A stretch of DNA of 27,329 nucleotides from positions 1 to 27,329 of IMG/VR virus record IMGVR_UViG_3300018082_000024. One strand, written 5' to 3'. Source of the stretch: a virus. The first letter of the stretch is position 1; every line of letters starts with the position of its first letter. The notes beneath the pieces are model-generated. The model saw nothing but the letters and a program-made list of their open reading frames with translations. It did no database searches and had not been told where the DNA came from. Positions 354 to 23,441 of this stretch are shown in pieces. The position numbers and the translations under genes are program-made.

Positions 354-2672
354 CTACGTCCAGGTGCTCCCAACCGTTCGGTACGAACTGTTGTACCAAA
401 TTTCCACCCCATTCCCAACGGTGGGTCGTAAGACGATGTACATCTTGTTCGTCACGTCCCAGGGATCAAGGATATGGTAGCCAACGGCTGCACCAGGCAG
501 GCCAGTCCTGCTAATTGGTATCCAATTCACGGTCCCTGCAGTACGATTCAGCGTGTAAGCGGGGTAGAGTACGTTGCTCTTGATTGCAAGTGTAATGAGT
601 TCCAGGCTCACTGGGCCACCCAAGTCTTCAGATGGCGGCAAGACTACATTACCATCTTCAAGCAACTCGAATTGCCGTGTCTTACGCTCAATGAGCGTGA
701 TCGTCCAGGCTGTATCCCAGCGCTGCATGTTGTTTGTAGAATCATGCCTCACCGCCTGCTCCATTGGGGGCGGCGGGAAGGGCATGACTGACCACACTTC
801 CTCTATGCTTTCCAACCCTGTGTTATCCACGATGTTCGGGTAGAAGATGGTATAGAGGTGCAGCGGGTAAACCGCTTTGCGCATGTGGTCGAGAAAGGCC
901 CGTATCTGCCGCTGCGTGAGACCAGGGAAGGCACTCTCACTAGCTGGAGCGTCAATGGTGAACTCAAAGATGCGGATCGGCTCAGGATTCGGCTGCGCCC
1001 GAATGGTGTAATCAAGAAGAATTGGCGTCGTCGCAGCGGTCGTCGTGGCGAAGTCCCAACGAAAACGGGTACGGCGCTGGATGAACTGCTTAGGTATCAG
1101 GATGACTTGCGGCGTCGGCGTGGTCGTAACACTGAGCGTCCGTGAGTAGGTAGTGCCGTCGTCGGCCTCTAGCACCATCGTGATACTGCCGCCTGTACCG
1201 TTGGCCGCCGCCGTGATGGTGACCTCGAACCAGAGCTTCGGCGTGTTAGGGCAGCCAAGGTCGTTCCAGGGCTCATAGAGGCTGCCGCTTGCGGCGTAGC
1301 GCATCCGTGTGTCCTGCAAGGGGTCAGGGCCAGCAGGGAGCGTCCAATAGGAGGCCTTGAAGCTCAGATCGGTCGCTGTGCTCGCCCAGAGGATAGGCCC
1401 AGAGGTGGACTGGCTTGTGATCCACAGCTCATCACTGGTTGTGGTGCTCAGGTCAAGCAAGGAGCGCCAGACTAATTCGTCCCCCACCTGTTCGAGACAA
1501 ACGATGCGATGCGTGTTGTCAGCCGGCTTCTGAATCTCGGCGTAGAGGTATTGGGTGTCGTCCACCATCGCCCGCACACGCCCGATGAACCGACCAATCG
1601 TTCCTACTTCCAGCGCTCTCTCCTGACTTAAAGCGGGCGCCACATGATAGAAGCGCCCGCCCTGAATCATATAGAGCAGCCCGTAGTGGGTCGGGTAGAG
1701 CATCTTGTCGCCACTCCAGACGTAGGAGTGCCAGCCGTTCCCTCGATCTCGCTTCTTTTGAAGCCCTGGCAGCAGGTCCGTTGTGTTCCCTTGCCCGTCA
1801 AGGTTGAAGATGCCCTCTTCCTTGCCAAACACGGCGTTGTTGGAGAGGCCCACCATCTCGAAGGAGCCAGTGGAAGCGTCGCCTGTCTCGCCTATCGCAT
1901 CAGCAGGGCTCCAGGCGGCGCCACCATTGATGCCGCTGGTGGTCTGGTAATGCAGATTCGGCATCCGCGTCTTATGCAGCACGTCGTTGAGCACCATGAA
2001 CTGCTCGGCTTTATCGTCCGGATTGCCCCGGTTGCTCTCAACCCAGACTGCCCCATCGGTGCTGTAGGCGTACACCGCTGTTTCACCCGCCGCTGCATAG
2101 AGCACATCATCGTAGACCACGAGATCACGGAGCACAGCAGAGCCGTTGGAGTGGGTGAAAACGAGCGTGAAGAAGGCCGTACCCTCTCCTGAGCCAGACC
2201 AGCTACCGAGGCTATAGACTCTTGTTCCCGCTATCGCGACGTAGAGAACGCCCCGAAACTCGACGGCTGCACTGATACGGGCTGGCATAGCTGCCTGTCC
2301 CGAGCCAAGGCCAGCGGTGTACTGGCGTGCCGAGAGCGTGGGGTGGCGCTTGCGGTGATCGACGTTGACGGTGAAGGATGGGCGATTGCCCTTTGGTCGC
2401 TCATAGTAGGCCCCGAAGGGACCATCCCAGGCGCTCTTCTCGAACTGTATCTCTAGGGTTTGGGGGTCGATGGCGTAGCCGTTACGCCCCACGAGGTCAA
2501 CGATAGACCTGCTCGCGTCGTCATATGAGCGATACATCGGCCCATTTTCGCCATCGCGAATCTTGAGGCCGATTTCGCGCAGAATGTTGTTGGGAAGCGT
2601 CTCCTCATCTTCAAATTTCAACTTGATGTGCGAGCTGCCAGGGGGCGCCGCGCGGACCGCAATCCCAGCCAT
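354..2672 (-). CDS. Large tail protein with beta-propeller-like repeats
   Basis: This 772-aa protein contains recurring blade-like units between about residues 130 and 400, such as GVLYVAIAGTRVYSL and DVLYAAAGETAVYAYSTDG, each with paired strands and a W or Y at the end. Such propeller-like repeats are known in phage tail hub or nozzle proteins, so a tail tube-end or nozzle role is inferred from the repeats and from the position after the other tail genes. The C-terminal third is beta-rich and contains a PFPPPPM segment. The ATG follows the TAG of the 460-aa gene with no gap and in the same frame, and no clear Shine-Dalgarno is visible, so translation is probably coupled. It ends with TAG, after which the frame stays open to the window edge. 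Confidence 0.7.
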   Translation of the reverse strand: MAGIAVRAAPPGSSHIKLKFEDEETLPNNILREIGLKIRDGENGPMYRSYDDASRSIVDLVGRNGYAIDPQTLEIQFEKSAWDGPFGAYYERPKGNRPSFTVNVDHRKRHPTLSARQYTAGLGSGQAAMPARISAAVEFRGVLYVAIAGTRVYSLGSWSGSGEGTAFFTLVFTHSNGSAVLRDLVVYDDVLYAAAGETAVYAYSTDGAVWVESNRGNPDDKAEQFMVLNDVLHKTRMPNLHYQTTSGINGGAAWSPADAIGETGDASTGSFEMVGLSNNAVFGKEEGIFNLDGQGNTTDLLPGLQKKRDRGNGWHSYVWSGDKMLYPTHYGLLYMIQGGRFYHVAPALSQERALEVGTIGRFIGRVRAMVDDTQYLYAEIQKPADNTHRIVCLEQVGDELVWRSLLDLSTTTSDELWITSQSTSGPILWASTATDLSFKASYWTLPAGPDPLQDTRMRYAASGSLYEPWNDLGCPNTPKLWFEVTITAAANGTGGSITMVLEADDGTTYSRTLSVTTTPTPQVILIPKQFIQRRTRFRWDFATTTAATTPILLDYTIRAQPNPEPIRIFEFTIDAPASESAFPGLTQRQIRAFLDHMRKAVYPLHLYTIFYPNIVDNTGLESIEEVWSVMPFPPPPMEQAVRHDSTNNMQRWDTAWTITLIERKTRQFELLEDGNVVLPPSEDLGGPVSLELITLAIKSNVLYPAYTLNRTAGTVNWIPISRTGLPGAAVGYHILDPWDVTNKMYIVLRPTVGNGVEIWYNSSYRTVGSTWT

Positions 2673-10969: not shown

Positions 10970-11152
10970 TTATCGCTGTATAGTAAGCGAATCGATCCCC
11001 GTTTTGTCAATATTTGCATCTAAGGTCAGCGTCACGAAGGTCTTACAACGAGGGCAGCGGGTCTCTATCGTGCCAAAGCCACGACCATCGTGCTTCAAGA
11101 GCAAATGACCACAAGAAGGGCAGCGCCATTCGCGGAGGTTAGCGGTTCTCAT
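10970..11152 (-). CDS. Com-like zinc ribbon protein
   Basis: This 60-aa protein reads LREWRCPSCGHLLLKHDGRG, then GTIETRCPRCKTFVTLTL. C11 and C14 pair with C33 and C36, and the spacing and flanking residues closely match the Mu Com family of small zinc-binding translational regulators. In phage Mu, Com binds mRNA and switches on mom translation; many phages carry Com-like proteins without a mom gene. The ATG overlaps the TGA of the 1331-aa gene by 4 bp. No mom-like DNA modification gene is recognised in this window, so the target is unknown. Confidence 0.72.
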   Translation of the reverse strand: MRTANLREWRCPSCGHLLLKHDGRGFGTIETRCPRCKTFVTLTLDANIDKTGIDSLTIQR

Positions 11153-14100
11153 CGTCCCAGTATTTCTCGAAGGCCACTATTGCGCGTTGGTGCGCCAGCC
11201 GTCGCAGGTACTCTTGTTGAAGCGGCAAGCGGCGGCATTGTCGCTCTGGTAACTGGCGTACTTATCTGGAGCGGCGCGGTCCCTAATGGCGGCACACTCG
11301 GAACCTTCCCACCTTCAATCAACTCCAGCTTCATCTCGTTGCGCACCTTTTCCCGCACCTTGTCTATCACTCGCTCCACGCCCTTCTTCTGAATCTCAGG
11401 CGGCAAGGAAGTAATCGTTGGATCAGACAACAGCTTGCTGAGCGTGTCGTAGACCATCATGCCGCTCACCTGGCGATAGCGATGGGCAGTTTTGCTATCC
11501 ATCTTGATAGACTCGGTCCCGATGGTAAGACGGTCGGAGATAAATCCAGGAGTGACGCCAATATTAACAAGTTGCTCCGTCAGAGGATCAGGAGTATCTG
11601 GCGGCAAAGCAGCAGGCAGGAACGCCATCAGGCCAGAACCACCCTTTCGTTCCACGTCCTTGCCGAAAACGTCCTGACGGGTGAGAACTTGCTGACTAAG
11701 ACCAGGGATGCCCGTCTCAATGCGCTCCCAGATATCGTCCGGGTCTCGCATAATCGTATCAATCGCCTGAGCCACATTACGCTGCAATCCACTCAGGGGG
11801 TTGAATCCACCCGCGATGCTTGCCAGCCACGCTTCGGCATACCGCACGGGGTCAGTGGCCGCATTCACCATGTCGGAGAATCCCCGCAGGAACGACATAT
11901 CCAAAAACGATCCCACCGTGAGCGCTGCTGCAGTAATCGCTGACTCCTCGGGGTCGCTACCTTGCATAAATGAATCACCGATCACCGAGGAAAGGAGCAA
12001 TGGGAAAGCCACGGGACCAAGCCAGCGGTAATCCATCCAGTTGTCACCAATTTTAATGCTATATGGCTGTTTGCCGAGACGGTAGAACTCGTCACGCTGC
12101 GCAGGGGTAGTCGGCGCCCTACCTGTAAGGTTGCCATTGGCGAAAGCGGCGGCGCCCCAAGCGGTCATACCAGAGCCGATTATGCCCTTCGCCAATGTCT
12201 CTGCTGCCTTGGGGTCACGGCGAGCTAATTGCACCAAACCCTGACCTGCGCCATAGGGAGTGAGCGCGAGCCCCTGTCGAAAGATATTCCCTGGTGTTTT
12301 GACAAAGGGAACAATGAAGCGGGCCAGCGGCACCTTCTCCCGAATATCGAGAAACGTCTGGGTAATCTTGCCAGGCTCATCGGTAAAGGTCGCCATGTGG
12401 GAGAACTTCCCGGCCCCGGCGAGCATATCGTCAGTGGGACTCTCTATTAAATCTGCGATTCTATCGGCTTGCGCCTGGCCCTTCAGACCTGCTTTGATTG
12501 CTTTTCGCACAGCCAGTGCTGCCAGCTCTGATTGGAAAGCCATGCTCTTCGCGAAGGCATCGCTGGCTACTAAGAATCGACCTCCTGCATTGAGCGGGTT
12601 AGCGATGCCACCAGGGAACTCATAGTGCGCAGGTCGATCAAACTGGGCAGCGTCTTCAATGTCAAAGCCGTTACGCAACACATGAAGTGCTTTCCGAAAT
12701 CCTTCTGGCATCCCTTGCAAGAAACCCATTGCTGAAGGCAAAGCCTCATCAGGGAAGAACTCTTGTGGGCGTCCTTGCAACTTCGATATGGGATAGTCCA
12801 GGGCTCCTCGGACACCACGAATGGGGATTTGTAGAGTGCCATTGACGGCGTTGCTCACAATATTGCGAATATGCGTTTTGGGGCCAGAGAGCACGTTGGA
12901 AATCCAGTAACTCTGCAACTTATCAAAGTTACTGAACTTGCCCTTGCGCAGGTTGTTCAGCGCCTTTTGAAAAGCAGGGTCTACCTCACCGAGGCCAAGT
13001 TGCTGGCCTCGCGCTAACTGATTTACTTTACGCTCTACCTCAGCCATAATTTTGGGCGGCTGTCCACCGCCTGAAGGTGGCTGTGCCCCAGTTGCAGTTG
13101 GCGGTTTGGGCGGTTCTATCGGTGGAGGTAGCGAGGTTCCAGTAGCCTGCGCAATCGAGCGCTCCAGCGTTTCCTCTAAGGAAGGTTGTGCCTCACGAAT
13201 ACGCTTGACTTCAGCGCCGATGGAGGCCATCTCATCGGGATTGGCCTCTCCCTTCTCGAAGAAGTTGTAGATGCGCCCTCGAAGAGCAGCCCCTTCTGGC
13301 GTTCCAGCTAAGCCTTCAGATCGTAGGAACTCATCGGCCTGCGAGCGCGCAATCGCTCGTTGCTGAGGGTTTGTTGGAGCAGCCTGCGCAAGCTCCCCTT
13401 CTGGCACAGCGGCAGATGGGCCAGGCGTTGCCTTACGACCTTGAAGCCACGCCTCAAACTCGGCTGGCTCATCGAGGCTAGGGATTCCGCGCTTTTGCCG
13501 AACAGCACGAACCATCGTTTGTAGTTCCCTAACATCGGTAATGTCCTTCACCTCTGGCATGAGCACATCAACAATTTGACGCGCTGGTAAACGCTGTGCA
13601 GCCAGTTCTTCAATGCGATCTGAAACACCCATTTGGTCGGCGCGTGCTACCAAACGATCCAAGTCCTGCCGTAGCCAATCTGGGATTCGTGCAAAGCCTT
13701 CCTCAGAGCCCACGAGCTTGTTCAACGGCTGGAAGTTTGCCTGCAAACGCTGTACCAGACCTGGCCTCGTGGCCTCTTGGCCTGAATAGCGGATCATGTC
13801 TGGGTTACGCACCATGTAGATGTTGCCAGACTGAACAGCGTCCAGCCCCTTCTCTTCCATGTAACGCCACACGGCAGCATCAGGATTGCGGCCAATAGAC
13901 TCGCCTACCTCACCGATGATGCTCTTGAGATTGACCTTCCGCACCTTCGCTTTCGGATCGAGGGTGACACGGAACATGCGTGGGCCAGCGCCTTCCGTCT
14001 CACCAGCAGAGACGGCGTAGGTTGCTGCGTAATTCGGGTCTTTCGATAGGTAGACAACGCCACCAGGAGGGGCTGCTAGTTCATCGAAGGCTCTAGTAGC

Positions 14101-15144
14101 GGTCGTGCCGTGAAAGAGCGGAGTTGGTGCACGAGGTCCAACGGCCTCTCCTATTTCTGCTACAGCACGCCTGATGCCTCGCCCTGCTAATCGCCCTCCA
14201 ACCTGTCCTACCTTGCCGACGGGCAAGAAGCCCACAGGGTCAGCGATTGCGCCAAGAGCACCACGGCCAGTCAAACGTCCCAGTAGGGTATTGATGCCAC
14301 CTAATTCACCAACACCTGCGCCTTCTAGGAATGGTTCGGCAGTTGGCAATGAGGAGAGGACGCCGAGAGCTGGGCCGAGTCCAAAGGGGAGATTGCGTGT
14401 AATGGGATTCTGCTGCATCGCCTGGACGTTCTCAGGAATGCTCTGAATCCCGCGCCCATAAGCGTCAAGTTGAGCGCCAATCCCTCGACCGAGGCTGCCC
14501 AGAACACCGCCAAAGCCTGCCCCTTGTCCAGGAGCAGCATTGGCCCTAGCAAGCCGTGCACGCATCTCGGGTGTCATCTGCGGCCCTGCGTCGAAGCCCT
14601 CCGCTTCCTCGCCAGAAGGTGTATATAAGGAAGGCGTCTCGAAGCTTGTGCTCCCACCACCACCACCGAAGTCAGAAGGCCCTCCCGTGGAATATCGGTC
14701 GTAGGAAGCCTGGTACTTTCGTGCGGCGCCTATGGGATCGTAGGGTCGCTGAGCGGCGGCGATGAGTTGCCCTGGTGTGCCCTGGAAGCCTGACTCCAGG
14801 AGTCGCCGCACGTCGGCAGCGAAGCGCTGAGTCTGGCGCACGGGGTCGATGTCGCGGGGAGCCTGGGCGCCCCTTCCTTTAAGGTGCTCTTGGTAGGGGC
14901 CGTAGCTCTGCCCCTGGTCGCCAACGCGGTTGTAATACTCGTTGGGGTCGTCGTAGAAGCCGCCCTCGTTCTCGACCGTGGCGAGGGCGAGGTAGGGGTC
15001 GATGCCCTCTTTCTGGGCAGCGCTGTAGATCGTGCCTCGGATGCCGCCATAAGGAGTAGTCCTTCCTCCATAGGCGTTGGAGACGAGGCCACCGAGACGC
15101 GAGGAGCCGCTACGGTAGCCGGATAGCCGCTCACGGAGGCTCAT
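11149..15144 (-). CDS. Giant multidomain protein: lytic transglycosylase, ART-like, ejection-type region
   Basis: The product has 1331 aa. Residues about 35-150 form a lysozyme-like transglycosylase domain: EGIDPYLALATVENEGGF places a candidate catalytic Glu at 58, and GQSYGPYQEH follows. Residues about 342-455 look like an ADP-ribosyltransferase of the polyvalent-protein type: PLFHGTTATRAFDEL, then VVYLSKDPNYAATYA, then GLDAVQSGNIYMVRNPDMIR. The usual acidic catalytic residue near the third motif is not obvious. A Pro/Gln-rich linker (about 570-700) precedes a long region (about 740-1170) with SGPKTHIRNIVSNAVNG and PLARFIVPFVKTPGNI, recurring in large phage proteins. The C-terminus is a charged helix plus a Pro/Thr tail. 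It probably travels in the virion and is ejected with the DNA (inference). The start overlaps the membrane peptide gene (ATGA). Confidence 0.72.
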   Translation of the reverse strand: MSLRERLSGYRSGSSRLGGLVSNAYGGRTTPYGGIRGTIYSAAQKEGIDPYLALATVENEGGFYDDPNEYYNRVGDQGQSYGPYQEHLKGRGAQAPRDIDPVRQTQRFAADVRRLLESGFQGTPGQLIAAAQRPYDPIGAARKYQASYDRYSTGGPSDFGGGGGSTSFETPSLYTPSGEEAEGFDAGPQMTPEMRARLARANAAPGQGAGFGGVLGSLGRGIGAQLDAYGRGIQSIPENVQAMQQNPITRNLPFGLGPALGVLSSLPTAEPFLEGAGVGELGGINTLLGRLTGRGALGAIADPVGFLPVGKVGQVGGRLAGRGIRRAVAEIGEAVGPRAPTPLFHGTTATRAFDELAAPPGGVVYLSKDPNYAATYAVSAGETEGAGPRMFRVTLDPKAKVRKVNLKSIIGEVGESIGRNPDAAVWRYMEEKGLDAVQSGNIYMVRNPDMIRYSGQEATRPGLVQRLQANFQPLNKLVGSEEGFARIPDWLRQDLDRLVARADQMGVSDRIEELAAQRLPARQIVDVLMPEVKDITDVRELQTMVRAVRQKRGIPSLDEPAEFEAWLQGRKATPGPSAAVPEGELAQAAPTNPQQRAIARSQADEFLRSEGLAGTPEGAALRGRIYNFFEKGEANPDEMASIGAEVKRIREAQPSLEETLERSIAQATGTSLPPPIEPPKPPTATGAQPPSGGGQPPKIMAEVERKVNQLARGQQLGLGEVDPAFQKALNNLRKGKFSNFDKLQSYWISNVLSGPKTHIRNIVSNAVNGTLQIPIRGVRGALDYPISKLQGRPQEFFPDEALPSAMGFLQGMPEGFRKALHVLRNGFDIEDAAQFDRPAHYEFPGGIANPLNAGGRFLVASDAFAKSMAFQSELAALAVRKAIKAGLKGQAQADRIADLIESPTDDMLAGAGKFSHMATFTDEPGKITQTFLDIREKVPLARFIVPFVKTPGNIFRQGLALTPYGAGQGLVQLARRDPKAAETLAKGIIGSGMTAWGAAAFANGNLTGRAPTTPAQRDEFYRLGKQPYSIKIGDNWMDYRWLGPVAFPLLLSSVIGDSFMQGSDPEESAITAAALTVGSFLDMSFLRGFSDMVNAATDPVRYAEAWLASIAGGFNPLSGLQRNVAQAIDTIMRDPDDIWERIETGIPGLSQQVLTRQDVFGKDVERKGGSGLMAFLPAALPPDTPDPLTEQLVNIGVTPGFISDRLTIGTESIKMDSKTAHRYRQVSGMMVYDTLSKLLSDPTITSLPPEIQKKGVERVIDKVREKVRNEMKLELIEGGKVPSVPPLGTAPLQISTPVTRATMPPLAASTRVPATAGAPTRNSGLREILGR

Positions 15145-15227
15145 TTATTCATCCGCCACAGGTGGAGCATCGCCAACCAGAGGAAGGAGTAGGAGACGAG
15201 GATGAGAACGACGGTGAGGACGAACAT
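15141..15227 (-). CDS. 28-aa single-span membrane peptide
   Basis: The short frame begins ATG at 15227 (or GTG at 15230), overlapping the TGA of the zinc-ribbon gene, and ends with a TGA that overlaps the ATG of the 1331-aa gene (ATGA). The translation is one hydrophobic helix (FVLTVVLILVSYSFLWLAML) with a basic end (HLWRMNK), giving a probable N-out/C-in topology by the positive-inside rule. Coupling on both sides supports a real gene. A holin-like role or help with membrane passage of the neighbouring protein is possible but unproven. Confidence 0.55.
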   Translation of the reverse strand: MFVLTVVLILVSYSFLWLAMLHLWRMNK

Positions 15228-15385
15228 CACCCGACTGCTTCAAACGGCAGAGGAAGCACAAGCACTTCAAAATGGTACTGGCAGAGATACACTAACTTCC
15301 CCGTTGCGTACCGATACAGATGAAGCGCGGCAACATTACAACCGCCAGCCTCACACCTTCGCTCCTCAATCCACCCAGGAATCAT
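15227..15385 (-). CDS. 52-aa zinc-ribbon-like protein
   Basis: I take the start at MIPGWIEERRCEAGGC (ATG at 15385). The frame stays open back to 15466, but that part is Arg-rich and overlaps the previous gene, so it looks like a shadow. C11, C16, C35 and H38 have zinc-ribbon spacing (RRCEAGGCNVAALHLY, then LVYLCQYHFE). It lies 4 bases after the preceding stop, and its TGA overlaps the membrane peptide start. The function is unknown; a nucleic-acid or protein-binding role is typical for such folds. Confidence 0.55.
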   Translation of the reverse strand: MIPGWIEERRCEAGGCNVAALHLYRYATGKLVYLCQYHFEVLVLPLPFEAVG

Positions 15386-15389
15386 ACGC

Positions 15390-15623
15390 TTACTCGATCT
15401 CCCCTCGCACCGCCTTCGCCTGCAATTCCATCGCCTCTTCGAGCGTGAGTTCTGCACCCAGGACACGCTGGCGCACTTCTGCCCTCAGCGGCTCTAGCGT
15501 GTAGCCAGCGGGGGCAGGCTCACGGGTATCGACTGCTGGAGGCGGCTCGACCCACTGCTCATGGACTTGCCAGTGAGTCTTTTTGTCCTGTGTCTCATAG
15601 GAGGATAGAAAGTAGGTCTTCAT
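15390..15623 (-). CDS. Hypothetical protein, 77 aa
   Basis: The ATG overlaps the TGA of the Tat-leader gene by 4 bp (ATGA). The protein starts MKTYFLSSYETQDKKTHW, has a Pro-rich middle (EPPPAVDTREPAPAGY) and a charged helical C-terminus (LRAEVRQRVLGAELTLEEAM). No motif or membrane segment is visible. It is a member of the chain of small genes between portal and the 1331-aa protein. Confidence 0.58.
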   Translation of the reverse strand: MKTYFLSSYETQDKKTHWQVHEQWVEPPPAVDTREPAPAGYTLEPLRAEVRQRVLGAELTLEEAMELQAKAVRGEIE

Positions 15624-15820
15624 GCCACGAATGTCACATTATGGACTTGTTCCCAGGAATGTCCGTGCTTTGTAGATCGGTAAAGTTTCTGATCTCCGTT
15701 TGAGAACACGGTGATGTACATTACGCCTGACCATTCGATAGCGCGTTCTTGCAACGGCGCGCCCAGGAATAGCCAAGAAGCGACACCTACAACAGAACCC
15801 AGAAACTGGCGGCGGTTCAT
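15620..15820 (-). CDS. 66-aa protein with twin-arginine-type leader
   Basis: The N-terminus MNRRQFLGSVVGVASWLFLG combines the twin-arginine motif (RRQFLG) with a hydrophobic stretch, as in bacterial Tat signal peptides; GAPLQERA could hold a cleavage region. The mature part, about 35 aa, includes YITVFSNGDQKLYRSTKHGHSWEQV, whose STKHGHSW segment resembles an Asp-box (S-x-x-x-G-x-S/T-W) of sialidase-type repeats. The gene overlaps both neighbours by 4 bp (ATGA on both sides), so it belongs to the head operon. Export of a tiny folded domain is an inference. Confidence 0.6.
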   Translation of the reverse strand: MNRRQFLGSVVGVASWLFLGAPLQERAIEWSGVMYITVFSNGDQKLYRSTKHGHSWEQVHNVTFVA

Positions 15821-16947
15821 CCTCGTAGACTCCCTCCATAGCCGCCGAAGCGCAGGCCAGAACCTACGCCACGACGGAAGATGGCGCGTTGGTATTCTTG
15901 CTCCGCTTCTGGTATCCCTTGAAACTCGCGTGCCTCGGTGTTCGCCGCCAATTCAAACGGCGTGAGGTTGCGCTGAGCCTGTGGTCCCTCGAAGCGGAGA
16001 TACGATGGCGTAGTTCCCTCACCCGCTGGTAATCCCGCCAGCTTGATAGGATCGCCCCGCTGGATTGCGGCCATGCTCGGCGGCATGGGGACGCCGCCTC
16101 CTCCTTGCGCCTGCCCGCTCATATCGACGCCGTAGCCACCGCCTGGGTTGGCTGACATATTAGGGATGCCACCTGCAGCGGCTCCTCCACCTTGAGCAAG
16201 CGTCGGAGCGAACTGGCCGAGGCCGACGTACTGCTGTGGGCTTCCTCTTAATAAGGAAAGGTAGGTGAGCGGTTGGGCTGTTCGAGCGGCCTGAATCTGC
16301 GTCTTCAGCTTCTCCTGCTCAAATTGCGGTAGTTCTAGCTGACTAAACTTCTGTCGCGCCAGATCGAGATAGCCCTGCTCCACCCCACCAGCGCCACCAG
16401 CCTTTTGCAGTCCAGTCAGGATACCCTGCTTAAAGGTAGGTTCATCAATAATCCCCAGGTCGAACGCCGCCTGCCAGTTCTTGTAATCGCCGGTGAAACC
16501 ACCGCCACCCGCTCCTTTCAGCAACTCCTGCTGAATGCGGGCACGATATTTGGCGGCGAGCGTTGTATCTCCGGCCTTATCGGCGGCAACAGCAGCAGCC
16601 TCCAAATCCTTCAGTTCCGCTTGGGAGAACCCACCAGCACCCGTTGTAGCGGGCATCGAGGCAATAACTCGTGGTTTCGTTCCTACCTGGCGCCCAAAAT
16701 CATCAAGGACTGGCTCATTCACGTAGACGGTGGTCTCACCGCCGAAGGTAAACGACTCGAAGCCCTCTGGTAGCCCTGCTGTCCCAGGAGTTGGAGGACG
16801 ATACCCGTATGCGTCCTCAATAGCGACGAGTTGCGCGTTGGCAGCATCATCAGTGAGAGATGCACGCGCTAAGGGCAGGAGCCCCGCGATAGCCCGATTT
16901 CTTTGCCCCGCCGGAATGACGCCTTGTTTGATGCCAGCGTCAACCAC
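15817..16947 (-). CDS. Gly/Ala-rich putative virion protein; start uncertain
   Basis: From the GTG at 16947 the product has 376 aa. It is helical at first (NRAIAGLLPLARASLTDDAA), then Gly/Ala/Gln-rich (about 250-300), with SYLRFEGPQAQRNLTPFELA and a Gly-rich end. It may be an internal virion, ejection or portal-associated protein; I do not recognise the family. The coding-like frame continues upstream (SSPQGNPEIDASEEADILKY) to just after the stop of the preceding gene without any ATG, GTG or TTG. GAGGAGG lies 8 bases before an in-frame CTG (16974), and AAGGAG lies 10 bases before an in-frame ACG (17043), so the true start may be non-canonical. The TGA overlaps the next ATG. Confidence 0.6.
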   Translation of the reverse strand: MVDAGIKQGVIPAGQRNRAIAGLLPLARASLTDDAANAQLVAIEDAYGYRPPTPGTAGLPEGFESFTFGGETTVYVNEPVLDDFGRQVGTKPRVIASMPATTGAGGFSQAELKDLEAAAVAADKAGDTTLAAKYRARIQQELLKGAGGGGFTGDYKNWQAAFDLGIIDEPTFKQGILTGLQKAGGAGGVEQGYLDLARQKFSQLELPQFEQEKLKTQIQAARTAQPLTYLSLLRGSPQQYVGLGQFAPTLAQGGGAAAGGIPNMSANPGGGYGVDMSGQAQGGGGVPMPPSMAAIQRGDPIKLAGLPAGEGTTPSYLRFEGPQAQRNLTPFELAANTEAREFQGIPEAEQEYQRAIFRRGVGSGLRFGGYGGSLRG

Positions 16948-17526: not shown

Positions 17527-17723
17527 GGCCTCACCACCCTTTGTCCTTCGCTTGTTCTAGGCTTGGCGATTGCTTCTATCTCTTCTTCAGTAAGACCTTC
17601 CAACTGAGCCGCCTTCCGAATAATCACTTCATCATCTGGCATGAGGCCCAGAGGAGAATGGAACAAGCGATCCAATAGGATAACTACCGCTTGGCGCTGC
17701 AATTCCTCCAATGGTCTTGTCAC
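17523..17723 (-). CDS. Hypothetical helical protein, 66 aa
   Basis: The GTG start overlaps the portal TGA by 4 bp (GTGA), and the stop overlaps the next GTG in the same way. The sequence is helical and charged (PLEELQRQAVVILLDRLFHS, then ADEEV-like region with EGLTEEEIEAIAKPR). Its place right after portal suggests a minor head or portal-associated role, but no family is evident. Confidence 0.55.
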   Translation of the reverse strand: MTRPLEELQRQAVVILLDRLFHSPLGLMPDDEVIIRKAAQLEGLTEEEIEAIAKPRTSEGQRVVRP

Positions 17724-19507
17724 GGCCCATACCTCCGTTGTCCCTCGCTTTCACCAGCCATCGCGTTCTCCAGCTCGCTCACTCGGAGCGCCTCGGCTTC
17801 AGGGGAGCCTGGCGGCTGGTAGATGCGCCCCATCTCAGAGGGTGAGGCGCCCATGCCGGTGAGGTCGCCCGTGCTCATGGCGCTTCCCTTGCCGTTCCTG
17901 CCTGTTTGGGCAGCGCTACGGTCGGCGACAATCAAACCACGGTCAATCAGGTAGCGTTCATAGAGCTTGCCAACGGCCTTGGCGACGATGGGCTGATTGG
18001 CGGCGGCGGCGTCCTCCGACCGTCGTTTGGCGATTTCGGAGATGGGGTCCTGTACCTTGTAGCCGTCCCGTAGGTACTTCTCCTGCGAGATGCCGCCGGC
18101 CTGCCAGTGCTCAAGGGCGGCCCCAGCTTGGCGGTCCATGTCTTCCGGCGGGCCTGCTAGCAGCTCGATCTCGACCGAGTAGGCACCGTCTATGTCCTCA
18201 GAGGTCACGAGCTGGTCCACGTCGTTCCCGTATGGGGAGCGGCCGTAGACCCTTACCCCTTTAGGAAAGACCTCATCCACGATATGCAGCGCCGTGCTCG
18301 TGGCCTGCTCGAACATGCCCTTAGCAGCCAATAATACCGACTCAAAGCGCATTCGTGCCTCCTGGAGTTGGAGGCTGGATTCGGCGGCGGAACTGGTGCC
18401 AGGCTGACGAATACCGGCAATGATGGAGGGAGCGGTATCCCTTGCCAATTCGCCGCGTTGCCATTCCATCATGCGCCACAGGTCGGGAGCGACATCGAGT
18501 TCGATGAGGGGCTTGATGTCCACGTCAGGGGGCACATACTGGGTCTCGCCCGAGCCAGGCCGCAGGTCGGTCATATCCTCGCGGTTCACTCTTAAGGAAG
18601 GGATGATGATCTGATTGACGATGACGTGGCCCATCGCGTACTGTCTGCTCCGTTCGATGATGGCCTCGCGGTGCTGGGTAAGGAGGCCGCGCATGATGTT
18701 CTCCGGTTTCCCCGTGAGATCCCAGAGGCCGTTGCCGCCGATCTTTATGGCGTAGGGCAGGCCAAACATGGTCTTCTTCTTTAATAATGGGTCGCGATCA
18801 CCCTTTCTGAAGATGGCAAATTGCTCATCCTCCCACCATTCCTCCATCTCGTACTCGGTGTCGTCAGCAATATCGCGGGGCAGGTCGCCATCCAGAATCT
18901 CGATCTCTTCTTTGATCTGGTAGCCCCATTTCTTGTAGGTGTCGGTGACCCAGCGAGGCTTGTTGGGGCCGAGGTCCCAGGTGAGCCAAGCGGGATTGGG
19001 CGCGGTGACCCAGAAGGGGAACTGGAGGTGCTGGCCTCGCTCCCAGCGTCTCGTCCGCTTCTTATAGTCCTCGTCCGCTTCACCCATGTCCTGCTTAGGA
19101 GGCTGCTCCTCGTAGCAATCCACGTTGGGGAGGGTTTTGAGGGCGCCCATATCGGTGGCGAAGAGGTTCTTGATAGCCTGCCGGCCGGGGTTTATCTGAC
19201 TCGTTTGCCAGACCATATGCCAGTAGCCGGTGCCCCACTTGCTCCGCTTCTCGGCATCGTCGATGTCCTGGGCAGAGACAGCCTTAGCGTTGACCTTGAG
19301 GTAGCGGATGAGGACATGATCAGTGGGCTCATCCACGATCCGCTGGGCGTCGCCAAGTTTGAGGGCAGGTTGGCCTTCGGGGAACTGCGCGTAGAGGAAC
19401 TCGTTCCGGTAGAGGGACTGGGCGGCGATGACCTGGGTGCGGAACTGGCCGAACTGGCGGTTCGCCAAGTCGATGGTGCGGCGCATGACGAGGTTGGAGG
19501 TGGTCAC
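17720..19507 (-). CDS. Portal protein
   Basis: The product has 595 aa. It starts at a GTG overlapping the TGA of the 89-aa gene (GTGA). The N-terminal half is mixed alpha/beta with charged acidic segments (DGDLPRDIADDTEYEMEEWW). The middle has HREAIIERSRQYAMG, then IIAGIRQPGTSSAAESSLQL and QEARMRFESVLLAAKGMFEQ at about 361-402. That last pattern (Gly/Ser-Ser-Ala-x-x-Ser followed by a long helix) is characteristic of phage portals. The C-terminus is Ala/Arg/Gln-rich. The portal forms the dodecameric DNA gate at one capsid vertex and binds terminase. Length and position two genes after TerL fit. Confidence 0.82.
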   Translation of the reverse strand: MTTSNLVMRRTIDLANRQFGQFRTQVIAAQSLYRNEFLYAQFPEGQPALKLGDAQRIVDEPTDHVLIRYLKVNAKAVSAQDIDDAEKRSKWGTGYWHMVWQTSQINPGRQAIKNLFATDMGALKTLPNVDCYEEQPPKQDMGEADEDYKKRTRRWERGQHLQFPFWVTAPNPAWLTWDLGPNKPRWVTDTYKKWGYQIKEEIEILDGDLPRDIADDTEYEMEEWWEDEQFAIFRKGDRDPLLKKKTMFGLPYAIKIGGNGLWDLTGKPENIMRGLLTQHREAIIERSRQYAMGHVIVNQIIIPSLRVNREDMTDLRPGSGETQYVPPDVDIKPLIELDVAPDLWRMMEWQRGELARDTAPSIIAGIRQPGTSSAAESSLQLQEARMRFESVLLAAKGMFEQATSTALHIVDEVFPKGVRVYGRSPYGNDVDQLVTSEDIDGAYSVEIELLAGPPEDMDRQAGAALEHWQAGGISQEKYLRDGYKVQDPISEIAKRRSEDAAAANQPIVAKAVGKLYERYLIDRGLIVADRSAAQTGRNGKGSAMSTGDLTGMGASPSEMGRIYQPPGSPEAEALRVSELENAMAGESEGQRRYGP

Positions 19508-19773
19508 AGTAGGCGATACTCCCCATGCTCGAGTACGTACAAATCGTCGTGTACGTCCTCATCGCTTCCTATCATAAAGGAGGGAACGATACGCTTTTCG
19601 GCCAACAGACGGCCCATCAGATCAGGGTATAATTCCATCAAAGCAACAATATGTAACGGGTGAAACACCAAAGGGCGGTCAGGAGCAGTGGATCTGAGGA
19701 TCGCTTCATCCATATCCATCGTTATTGCGAGTCCCACGCCGTCATCGCGCTCAAACATCACTTTATAACTCAC
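19504..19773 (-). CDS. Hypothetical protein between TerL and portal, 89 aa
   Basis: I place the start at the GTG at 19773, which overlaps the TerL TGA by 4 bp (GTGA). The frame is open further upstream, but only as an Arg/Gly-rich shadow of terL. The protein reads SYKVMFERDDGVGLAITMDM near the start, then an LHIVALMELYPDLMGRLL helix and an acidic segment (GSDEDVHDDLYVLEHGEY). The stop overlaps the portal GTG. The function is unknown; a small packaging or portal cofactor is possible. Confidence 0.6.
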   Translation of the reverse strand: MSYKVMFERDDGVGLAITMDMDEAILRSTAPDRPLVFHPLHIVALMELYPDLMGRLLAEKRIVPSFMIGSDEDVHDDLYVLEHGEYRLL

Positions 19774-21119
19774 GCTACGCCTACCCAGCGCTTCGGCTTG
19801 CCCAATTTCTGGCTCCCGCTCTGGCCGATAACGTGCGTCAAGACAAACCCCCCTGCGTCGTAGGCGTGATCCTCCGTCTTCTCCACGTCCTCGTAGCCCT
19901 GCGCGGCGTCGCGGTACTGCAATCTCGGCAACTCCCAAATCAACCGTGTACAGGTATTGAATATGTACAATCTAGGCGCAGGCGCCTGATGCGTCAAATA
20001 ATGAATGCGCTCGGGGCTCTGTTGGAGGGCCAGTTTCCAGGCTTGCAACCTATTTGCCCGGGTGCTGCCTCGGTCGGCTGGGCCTTCGGAGGCGAGCATG
20101 ATGTGACCGAGCCACCTGCCAAACTCCTTGAAGGCTGACCATTCGAGGGGCCGCTCAAGGTCCCTTACCATCGCCATTCTTGGGTCAACCCAGGTGCCGA
20201 TCAGCCGGTCTCCTTGGCTCATGGCGGCAATGGCCTTGGCGTTGGTCTCGGCGTTCTGCCCGCGCTGTTCGTACTCTCGGAACACAAAATAGTTGCCATC
20301 AGGGTCCTGCGTCATCCACTCGCAGACGGTGGGAGCGTTGGTGCCGTAGTCGATGCCTCTCCAGACAGGCCAGCTCCTTGGAATCTCGAACGGCGTCACG
20401 ACATGGACTTCAGAATCGAACTCGGGGAGGGCCTGGCCCTCGAACACATCGCGTGAGCCCAGGATGAGGCGCCGGTATTGGTCCTCGGTGTAGCTCTTCC
20501 TTCTGCTATCCTCGAAGTCCGCTGGCAGATTCCCAGCGTTGTCCGTCCAGAGGCTCTGAATGAAGACGAACTCGTCCGGGTACTTGCTCTCCATAGCGTA
20601 GAACCAGTCCATGCGTGGGCTAGGGTTCCAGGTAAGCAGCATCCGGTAACGAGGCCGCTCCCCATTGGGAAGAATCTGACGGAGCCGTCCATTGAGCAGT
20701 CGCACCGTGTTCTCCGGCACTTCCTCCACCTGATCGACGGCGATGCAGCCGTACTCAGCGGATGGGGAGTAGTCCTTGAGCCCAAGAAACGTGACGCGGC
20801 TGCCGTTGTGGAACCGTGTCCAGGCAGGAGCGGACCGATAAATCTGAGCGACCTCACCCTGGGCAACGAGACGGTGGAACAGATCATAAATCTGGGTAGG
20901 AGCCATAACGTCGGAGTAGTCGTAGCGAGCGATAACGCACTCGATGCCCGGATACTTGCGCATCACGAGGATGGTGACCATCGCTTCCCAGAAGGTCTTG
21001 CCACCACCCTCCGCCCCACCATACCCCGTCCAGCGAGCCCGTACCGCTGTCGCCTCCCGTTGCTTGGGATTGGGCGGCTTTTCCGCAGCAAGAATTTGAC
21101 GAGGCGCAGCAACAGCCAT
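19770..21119 (-). CDS. terL: Terminase large subunit
   Basis: The product has 449 aa. It holds an N-terminal ATPase and C-terminal nuclease, the motor that packages DNA through the portal. Walker A is GGAEGGGKT (34-42). Walker B is CIAVDQVEE (about 125-133) with D129 and the following Glu. A coupling-type motif, LLTWNPSP, lies at about 161-168. The nuclease part shows RGIDYGTN (D257), GTWVDPRM (D312) and DHAYDAGG (D421), the acidic triad expected of an RNase H-like fold. The sequence NPKQREATAVRARWTGYGGA is typical of the adenine-binding entry. It starts 4 bases after a 65-aa gene. It is the clearest gene of the window. Confidence 0.93.
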   Translation of the reverse strand: MAVAAPRQILAAEKPPNPKQREATAVRARWTGYGGAEGGGKTFWEAMVTILVMRKYPGIECVIARYDYSDVMAPTQIYDLFHRLVAQGEVAQIYRSAPAWTRFHNGSRVTFLGLKDYSPSAEYGCIAVDQVEEVPENTVRLLNGRLRQILPNGERPRYRMLLTWNPSPRMDWFYAMESKYPDEFVFIQSLWTDNAGNLPADFEDSRRKSYTEDQYRRLILGSRDVFEGQALPEFDSEVHVVTPFEIPRSWPVWRGIDYGTNAPTVCEWMTQDPDGNYFVFREYEQRGQNAETNAKAIAAMSQGDRLIGTWVDPRMAMVRDLERPLEWSAFKEFGRWLGHIMLASEGPADRGSTRANRLQAWKLALQQSPERIHYLTHQAPAPRLYIFNTCTRLIWELPRLQYRDAAQGYEDVEKTEDHAYDAGGFVLTHVIGQSGSQKLGKPKRWVGVA

Positions 21120-22750: not shown

Positions 22751-23260
22751 ATGTCCACACAGATTCTAACAGGTCACGACAGCGCGGTGACAGCCTACGT
22801 AGTCGAGGACTACCCTTACGGATTCAGGCTTCGCACCTCAATCCGATATTGGATAGAGACTCGCCCGGGCTACGGCCAGCGGTTTATGAGCCAGACGCTG
22901 AATCCAAAGACTGGACGCTGGAATAAGCCGAAAGCATCCACGTACAACGTTCTCATGATCATGCACCTAGACGCTCAGGAACATGTGACCTACGCCACAC
23001 CTGAAGAGTTCGACCTATTCCGCGGTGACGAGGGGCTAGACCGCTTCGAGGCCGCTTACAGTGAGGCGTTCGGGAACTACGAGAGAGAGGCTATCCGCTA
23101 CCTACGAGCTCGCAATCGGGCGGACAAGCGCGTCACCTGGACCGTCAAGCCCTATGTTCAAGGTGATCCGGTGCAGACCTTGAAAGAGCAGGCGCAGCTT
23201 TACGGCGCCGTCGTTCGGGATGAGCTGTGGAGGGAATCGGAGGAGGCGCGACGTGGCTAA
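22751..23260 (+). CDS. Phage protein of unknown function, 169 aa
   Basis: AGGGGGTCGAA precedes the ATG. The sequence begins MSTQILTGHDSAVTAYVVED and continues YPYGFRLRTSIRYWIETRPG, then SQTLNPKTGRWNKPKASTYN. This beginning, with a tyrosine-rich strand region and a WNKPK.STY motif, is common to a family in many phage genomes, with no assigned role. The C-terminal half is helical and charged (FGNYEREAIRYLRARNRADK). It overlaps the next gene by 8 bp. Confidence 0.72.
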   Translation: MSTQILTGHDSAVTAYVVEDYPYGFRLRTSIRYWIETRPGYGQRFMSQTLNPKTGRWNKPKASTYNVLMIMHLDAQEHVTYATPEEFDLFRGDEGLDRFEAAYSEAFGNYEREAIRYLRARNRADKRVTWTVKPYVQGDPVQTLKEQAQLYGAVVRDELWRESEEARRG

Positions 23261-23441
23261 CCTACAGACCGCTATCCTTGGCCTCTGTCTCGCGGCTGTG
23301 CTCACCATCCTCGGGCTGCAAATCGCCCGGGATCCATTCAGCCAACGCAACTTTGTGTGCCAAGAGGACGAGGCTTTGGTTTTCATCGACACACCCACCA
23401 AGGACCGCACCGGCTGCGTCAACCTCGACCGTCTGGACTAA
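23253..23441 (+). CDS. Small membrane-anchored protein, 62 aa
   Basis: The start is GTG at 23253, with GGAGGAGG 6 bases before it, overlapping the preceding stop. The N-terminus LQTAILGLCLAAVLTILGLQ is a single hydrophobic segment, followed by IARDPFSQRNFVCQEDEALV and a short polar domain with two Cys (about residues 36 and 54) that could form a disulfide outside the membrane. The role is unknown; superinfection or lysis-related functions are typical of such proteins but not shown. Confidence 0.62.
   Translation: MANLQTAILGLCLAAVLTILGLQIARDPFSQRNFVCQEDEALVFIDTPTKDRTGCVNLDRLD

Follow-up and report, generated by a model that had tools for sequence, protein, structure and literature searches.

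We found that a gene of 66 codons in the late region of a virus contig (15620..15820, minus strand) is very probably optional cargo in an exchangeable slot of an operon for internal virion proteins, because the same junction of its only syntenic relative holds an HNH endonuclease gene instead and the homology between the two phages is interrupted very nearly at the stop codon of one neighbouring gene and the start codon of the other. Regarding the product of the gene, the reading that we prefer, with a probability of about 45%, is that of an accessory protein, small and anchored in the inner membrane, with one beta-propeller blade outside the membrane, which would act in the envelope and would not be a part of the head. 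The swappable slot and the resemblance to a propeller blade are the new facts reported here.

The window, that is, the whole stretch of DNA analysed, is a linear virus contig of 27,329 bases (IMGVR_UViG_3300018082_000024). The late genes considered here lie on its minus strand. They include the terminase large subunit (19770-21119), a portal-like protein (17720-19507) that was named from its position and its synteny with the relative, without a family match, a 376-aa gene (15817..16947), the 66-aa gene, a 77-aa gene (15390..15623) and a gene for a 1331-aa gp16-like internal virion protein (11149..15144), as well as small genes, a scaffold-like gene, the capsid protein and tail genes. The 1331-aa protein matched phrog_6651 (E 1.9e-30) and was similar, with 20-29% identity in tblastn, to internal virion protein D of T7-like Roseobacter, Synechococcus and Desulfovibrio phages; this gp16-like gene beside the slot identifies the operon as a T7-like internal virion protein operon. 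The earlier note had spoken of a head operon, which is roughly right, the exact place of the 66-aa gene being between the 376-aa gene of the virion operon and the 77-aa gene, shortly before the gp16-like gene.

Some other features of the region were observed in passing. A short motif of the SLR..LG type recurs at the C-terminus of the 376-aa protein (GGSLRG) and at both the N-terminus (MSLRERL) and the C-terminus (LREILGR) of the gp16-like protein, and likewise in the relative. Between the gp16-like and scaffold-like genes there is a zinc-ribbon ORF of 60 aa (10970-11152, minus strand) that resembles the Mu-like Com translational regulator. The plus-strand gene region contains an ORF of 73 aa (23220-23441) with a strong transmembrane span, which matches PF17463 (Gp79) and phrog_828.

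The 66-aa protein, MNRRQFLGSVVGVASWLFLGAPLQERAIEWSGVMYITVFSNGDQKLYRSTKHGHSWEQVHNVTFVA, is encoded exactly at the position described before, and the ATGA overlaps on both sides, with the end of the 376-aa gene and with the start of the 77-aa gene, were confirmed by reading them directly. Further upstream in the frame there is no ATG, GTG or TTG. The in-frame codon log-odds of the ORF was 0.049, higher than that of every out-of-frame window of 66 codons in the large genes of the phage, but low (7.5th percentile) among the in-frame windows of these genes. Therefore, the ORF is probably coding, though its codon use is not typical. Taking the frame and the coupling together, we consider it very likely that this is a real gene. 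An overlapping ORF of 66 aa in another frame (15639..15839) was rejected as coding, its codon score being -0.206.

Operon profile scans for further relatives gave a single one in IMG/VR, IMGVR_UViG_3300043331_001286 (hereafter L002), and none in the GTDB genomes. The gene order is kept in L002: portal, a 93-aa gene, a 387-aa gene, the slot, a homologue of the 77-aa gene and, last, the gp16-like gene. The protein identities are 55% for the portal, 50% for the 376/387-aa pair, 70% for the 77-aa protein and 43% for the gp16-like protein, and the last 21 residues of the 376-aa protein are identical to those of its counterpart. The DNA flanking the slot is 76% identical in blastn; this homology ends around 15827 and resumes around 15626, and these two points bound the slot (15626..15827, minus strand). 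In L002 the slot is occupied by an HNH endonuclease gene (HNH_3, PF13392, E 4.7e-9) unrelated to the 66-aa gene, located at L002:5328-5777 (its start codon is uncertain), whose stop codon overlaps the start of the 77-aa homologue as ATGA. What separates the two phages here is thus one gene cleanly replaced by another, from the stop codon on one side of the slot to the start codon on the other. As a separate observation, the terminase large subunits (L002:528-2144 in the relative) look different despite the 55% identity of the portals, which suggests a module swap, although the two were not aligned directly.

The translational coupling of the gene within this operon, shortly before the gp16-like gene, would also fit a minor component of the virion or of the ejectosome; in that case a short hydrophobic protein would be produced alongside the internal virion proteins and would be ejected in their company. 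Nevertheless, L002, the one syntenic relative, has kept the neighbouring genes but lacks the 66-aa gene, and an HNH gene would not be expected to stand in for an essential part of the ejectosome. The gene is dispensable at the level of the clade, as represented by one relative, which argues against a core role in the head or in ejection, and we regard the virion component as improbable.

A second difference from L002 was found between the 77-aa and the gp16-like genes, where the window has two ORFs on the minus strand and L002 has nothing. One is a Cys/His-containing ORF of 52 aa (15227..15385), and the other encodes a 28-aa peptide with a single membrane span, MFVLTVVLILVSYSFLWLAMLHLWRMNK (15141..15227). 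The gene of the peptide has a typical codon score and overlaps the 52-aa ORF as TGATG and the gp16-like gene as ATGA. The fact that two small ORFs, hydrophobic or bearing a leader, lie between the 376-aa and the gp16-like genes recalls lysis genes, and actually the annotation of Desulfovibrio phage ProddE has a putative spanin just before the gene of internal virion protein B, and a holin/endolysin pair in the head operon. The 66-aa protein could then be a lysis-associated protein (holin-like, anti-holin or spanin-like) of the late structural operon, perhaps working with the 28-aa peptide. Nevertheless, it matched none of the lysis families in Pfam or PHROGs, no endolysin was recognised among the ORFs scanned in the window, and the blade-like beta part described below fits no known holin or spanin. 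We consider this explanation quite unlikely.

The leader of the protein (residues 1-27; 15740..15820, minus strand) consists of MNRRQFLG followed by SVVGVASWLFLGAP and LQERA. The segment RRQFL (residues 3-7) agrees with the TatP pattern RR.[FGAVML][LITMVF], as quoted in PMC6085387. In a simulation, a random N-terminus of the composition of the phage combined the motif with 13 uncharged residues at P ~0.0022, which gives 0.08 expected per 35 genes, a calculation framed after the sequence had been seen. The h-region is uncharged and its hydrophobicity (KD13) is 1.95, as compared with 1.92 +/- 0.36 for 30 Tat signals of P. aeruginosa taken from the table in PMC6085387. The Pfam model TAT_signal (PF10518) had one match in the whole window, which is this leader, with E 0.015 and 11.7 bits, below the cut-off of 22.7 bits, and the NCBIfam scan of the protein gave no matches. 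The only candidates for cleavage are VAS|W, which would leave a very short h-region, and LGA|P, with Pro at +1, and neither is convincing. Uncleaved anchors do occur among Tat signals. The leader is thus credible as a membrane-directing segment, since its motif and hydrophobicity are typical, while Tat is unproven owing to the score below the cut-off and the lack of a convincing cleavage site. From its sequence, the Tat route is plausible in preference to Sec. We judge it likely that the protein is inserted into the membrane or exported, and rather doubtful that such export would depend on Tat.

The Tat-type leader proposed in the earlier note therefore stands as to the RR motif and the hydrophobic stretch, and is weaker as to the family score and the signal-peptidase site. 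The same note had concluded that there is a folded product outside the membrane. This does not follow, because Tat export is not established and a single blade of 39 residues would be an odd folded cargo. A true Tat substrate would be a small protein, folded and perhaps oligomeric, that passes through TatABC to a site of action in the periplasm or outside the membrane. MNRRQFLG is near the consensus S/T-R-R-x-F-L-K, in line with this proposal, but the cargo would be of only ~39-51 residues, and the score and the cleavage candidates speak against it as well, so we hold it to be unlikely. An uncleaved membrane anchor fits the leader as well as a Tat substrate does. No study of a Tat substrate encoded by a phage came up in a literature search, but most subscription papers were outside its coverage and this negative result is therefore weak.

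The rest of the protein (residues 28-66; 15623..15739, minus strand) resembles a single blade of a beta-propeller, with a degenerate Asp-box, STKHGHSW. When these residues were compared with the PDB by phmmer, 21 sequences were matched, nearly all of them Asp-box or related beta-propellers, with a best E of 1.9e-5, a value that is the sum over many blades per target. The propellers matched were GH74 xyloglucanases, sortilin, a BNR hydrolase and an exo-arabinanase, always at the hairpin LYRST..G.SW. Blade by blade the alignments are weak (at best 5.9 bits in the top target), and the full-length protein as query gave only E 0.13. Of the control queries, the reversed one and the two shuffled ones had best E values of 6.7, 0.52 and 0.23, all with unrelated matches and none below 0.2. 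A single-sequence AlphaFold2 model, made without an alignment, predicted four strands in residues 26-59, with a block pLDDT of up to 84, and the top structural matches of this model in VIA-align were blades of sortilin, sialidase and GH43, with Z of at most 3.8. Foldseek against the PDB gave no matches at E 0.001 or better, the low-confidence leader spoiling the query. On the basis of the model and of these matches, a blade-like fold is somewhat more probable than not for the C-terminal part.

Regarding the Asp-box-like motif pointed out before, Ser, Gly, Ser and Trp of S-x-D-x-G-x-T-W are kept, whereas Lys replaces the defining Asp. Only Asp or Asn occupies this place in known structures (PMC2716378), and therefore STKHGHSW, with Lys at the D/N position (position 5 of the motif) of S/T-x-D/N-x-G-x-T/S-W, does not qualify as an Asp-box under that rule. 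The Pfam model BNR_6 (PF15899), an insensitive one of 14 positions, had no matches in the window at E 10. "One degenerate blade" is a fair description, and "Asp-box protein" is not. A short Asp-box-like motif, AYSTDGAVW, was also observed in the 772-aa tail protein (354-2672, minus strand), and propeller-like blades may exist in the tail too. An origin of the 66-aa gene from this tail protein was rejected, the BLASTP match having E 0.06 over 12 residues only.

Homologues of the 66-aa protein were found neither in IMG/VR nor among phages, GTDB genomes and plasmids, and family scans of Pfam, NCBIfam, PHROGs and PADLOC gave nothing, so it appears to belong to no family tested. With a leader and then just a single degenerate blade, the gene looks like the 5' end of a host gene for a Tat-exported Asp-box propeller protein, and a recently acquired fragment of such a gene, without a selected function, would be in keeping with the atypical codon use, the loss of the Asp and the lack of homologues found. 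Against this explanation, the ATGA coupling is neat at both ends, and the in-frame codon signal is still above all the wrong-frame windows. We take the host fragment to be unlikely, although less so than a lysis protein.

Coming back to the envelope protein that we prefer, its position and coupling signals were observed, and they suggest that the gene would be translated late through coupling to its neighbours. The RR leader would take the protein to the membrane, for insertion or passage through either Tat or Sec/YidC, and would probably be kept uncleaved as an anchor, leaving outside a beta-meander of 39 residues that resembles one propeller blade. More speculatively, this blade might bind to or pair with a protein of the envelope or the virion, or with its own copies, and could there block the entry of further phages or assist lysis. 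Superinfection exclusion, in line with the entry exclusion suggested in the earlier note, is an unlikely role on present grounds, and a role in lysis even a little more so. A much bolder possibility, which we consider very improbable, is that a single-blade mini-protein of a lytic phage is exported by Tat and assembles, alone or with a propeller of the host or of the phage, into a beta-propeller outside the membrane that blocks rival phages. If that were true, a separate single-blade gene would sit naturally beside the ancestral-blade hypothesis. Self-assembly of the lone blade, if this is how it folds, would have implications for the origins of propellers, and export of the protein by Tat, if real, would make this phage an unusual user of that route. 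As it stands, the 66-aa gene is one among many orphan cargo genes; small accessory genes wedged in virion operons are a main store of phage functions yet to be explained.

Comparing the gene with known systems, the Asp-box (BNR) beta-propellers such as sortilin, GH74 xyloglucanases and sialidases share with it the predicted four-stranded meander, and residues 33-62 align to their blade hairpins as MYI..(S)NG..LYRST..G.SW..V. Nevertheless, the 66-aa protein has one blade and not a full propeller domain, and has Lys for the invariant Asp/Asn (rule in PMC2716378). The likeness to Tat signal peptides lies in MNRRQFLG with its RR-x-F-L, in the uncharged h-region and in the typical hydrophobicity, whereas the score below the PF10518 cut-off, the lack of a good AxA site and a cargo far smaller than usual set it apart. 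In its layout, and only as an analogy, the protein recalls Ltp, a membrane-anchored exclusion lipoprotein from the lysogeny module of the temperate phage TP-J34 (PMC3952083), which is also small, encoded by a phage and made up of a membrane signal at the N-terminus and a short domain outside; the likeness is not based on sequence similarity, and the leader of the 66-aa protein has no Cys and its gene lies in a virion operon. Finally, although the occupant in the window is not an endonuclease, the slot itself is comparable to the homing-endonuclease and cargo slots of phage structural operons, since exactly the same junction of L002 is filled by an HNH_3 endonuclease gene.
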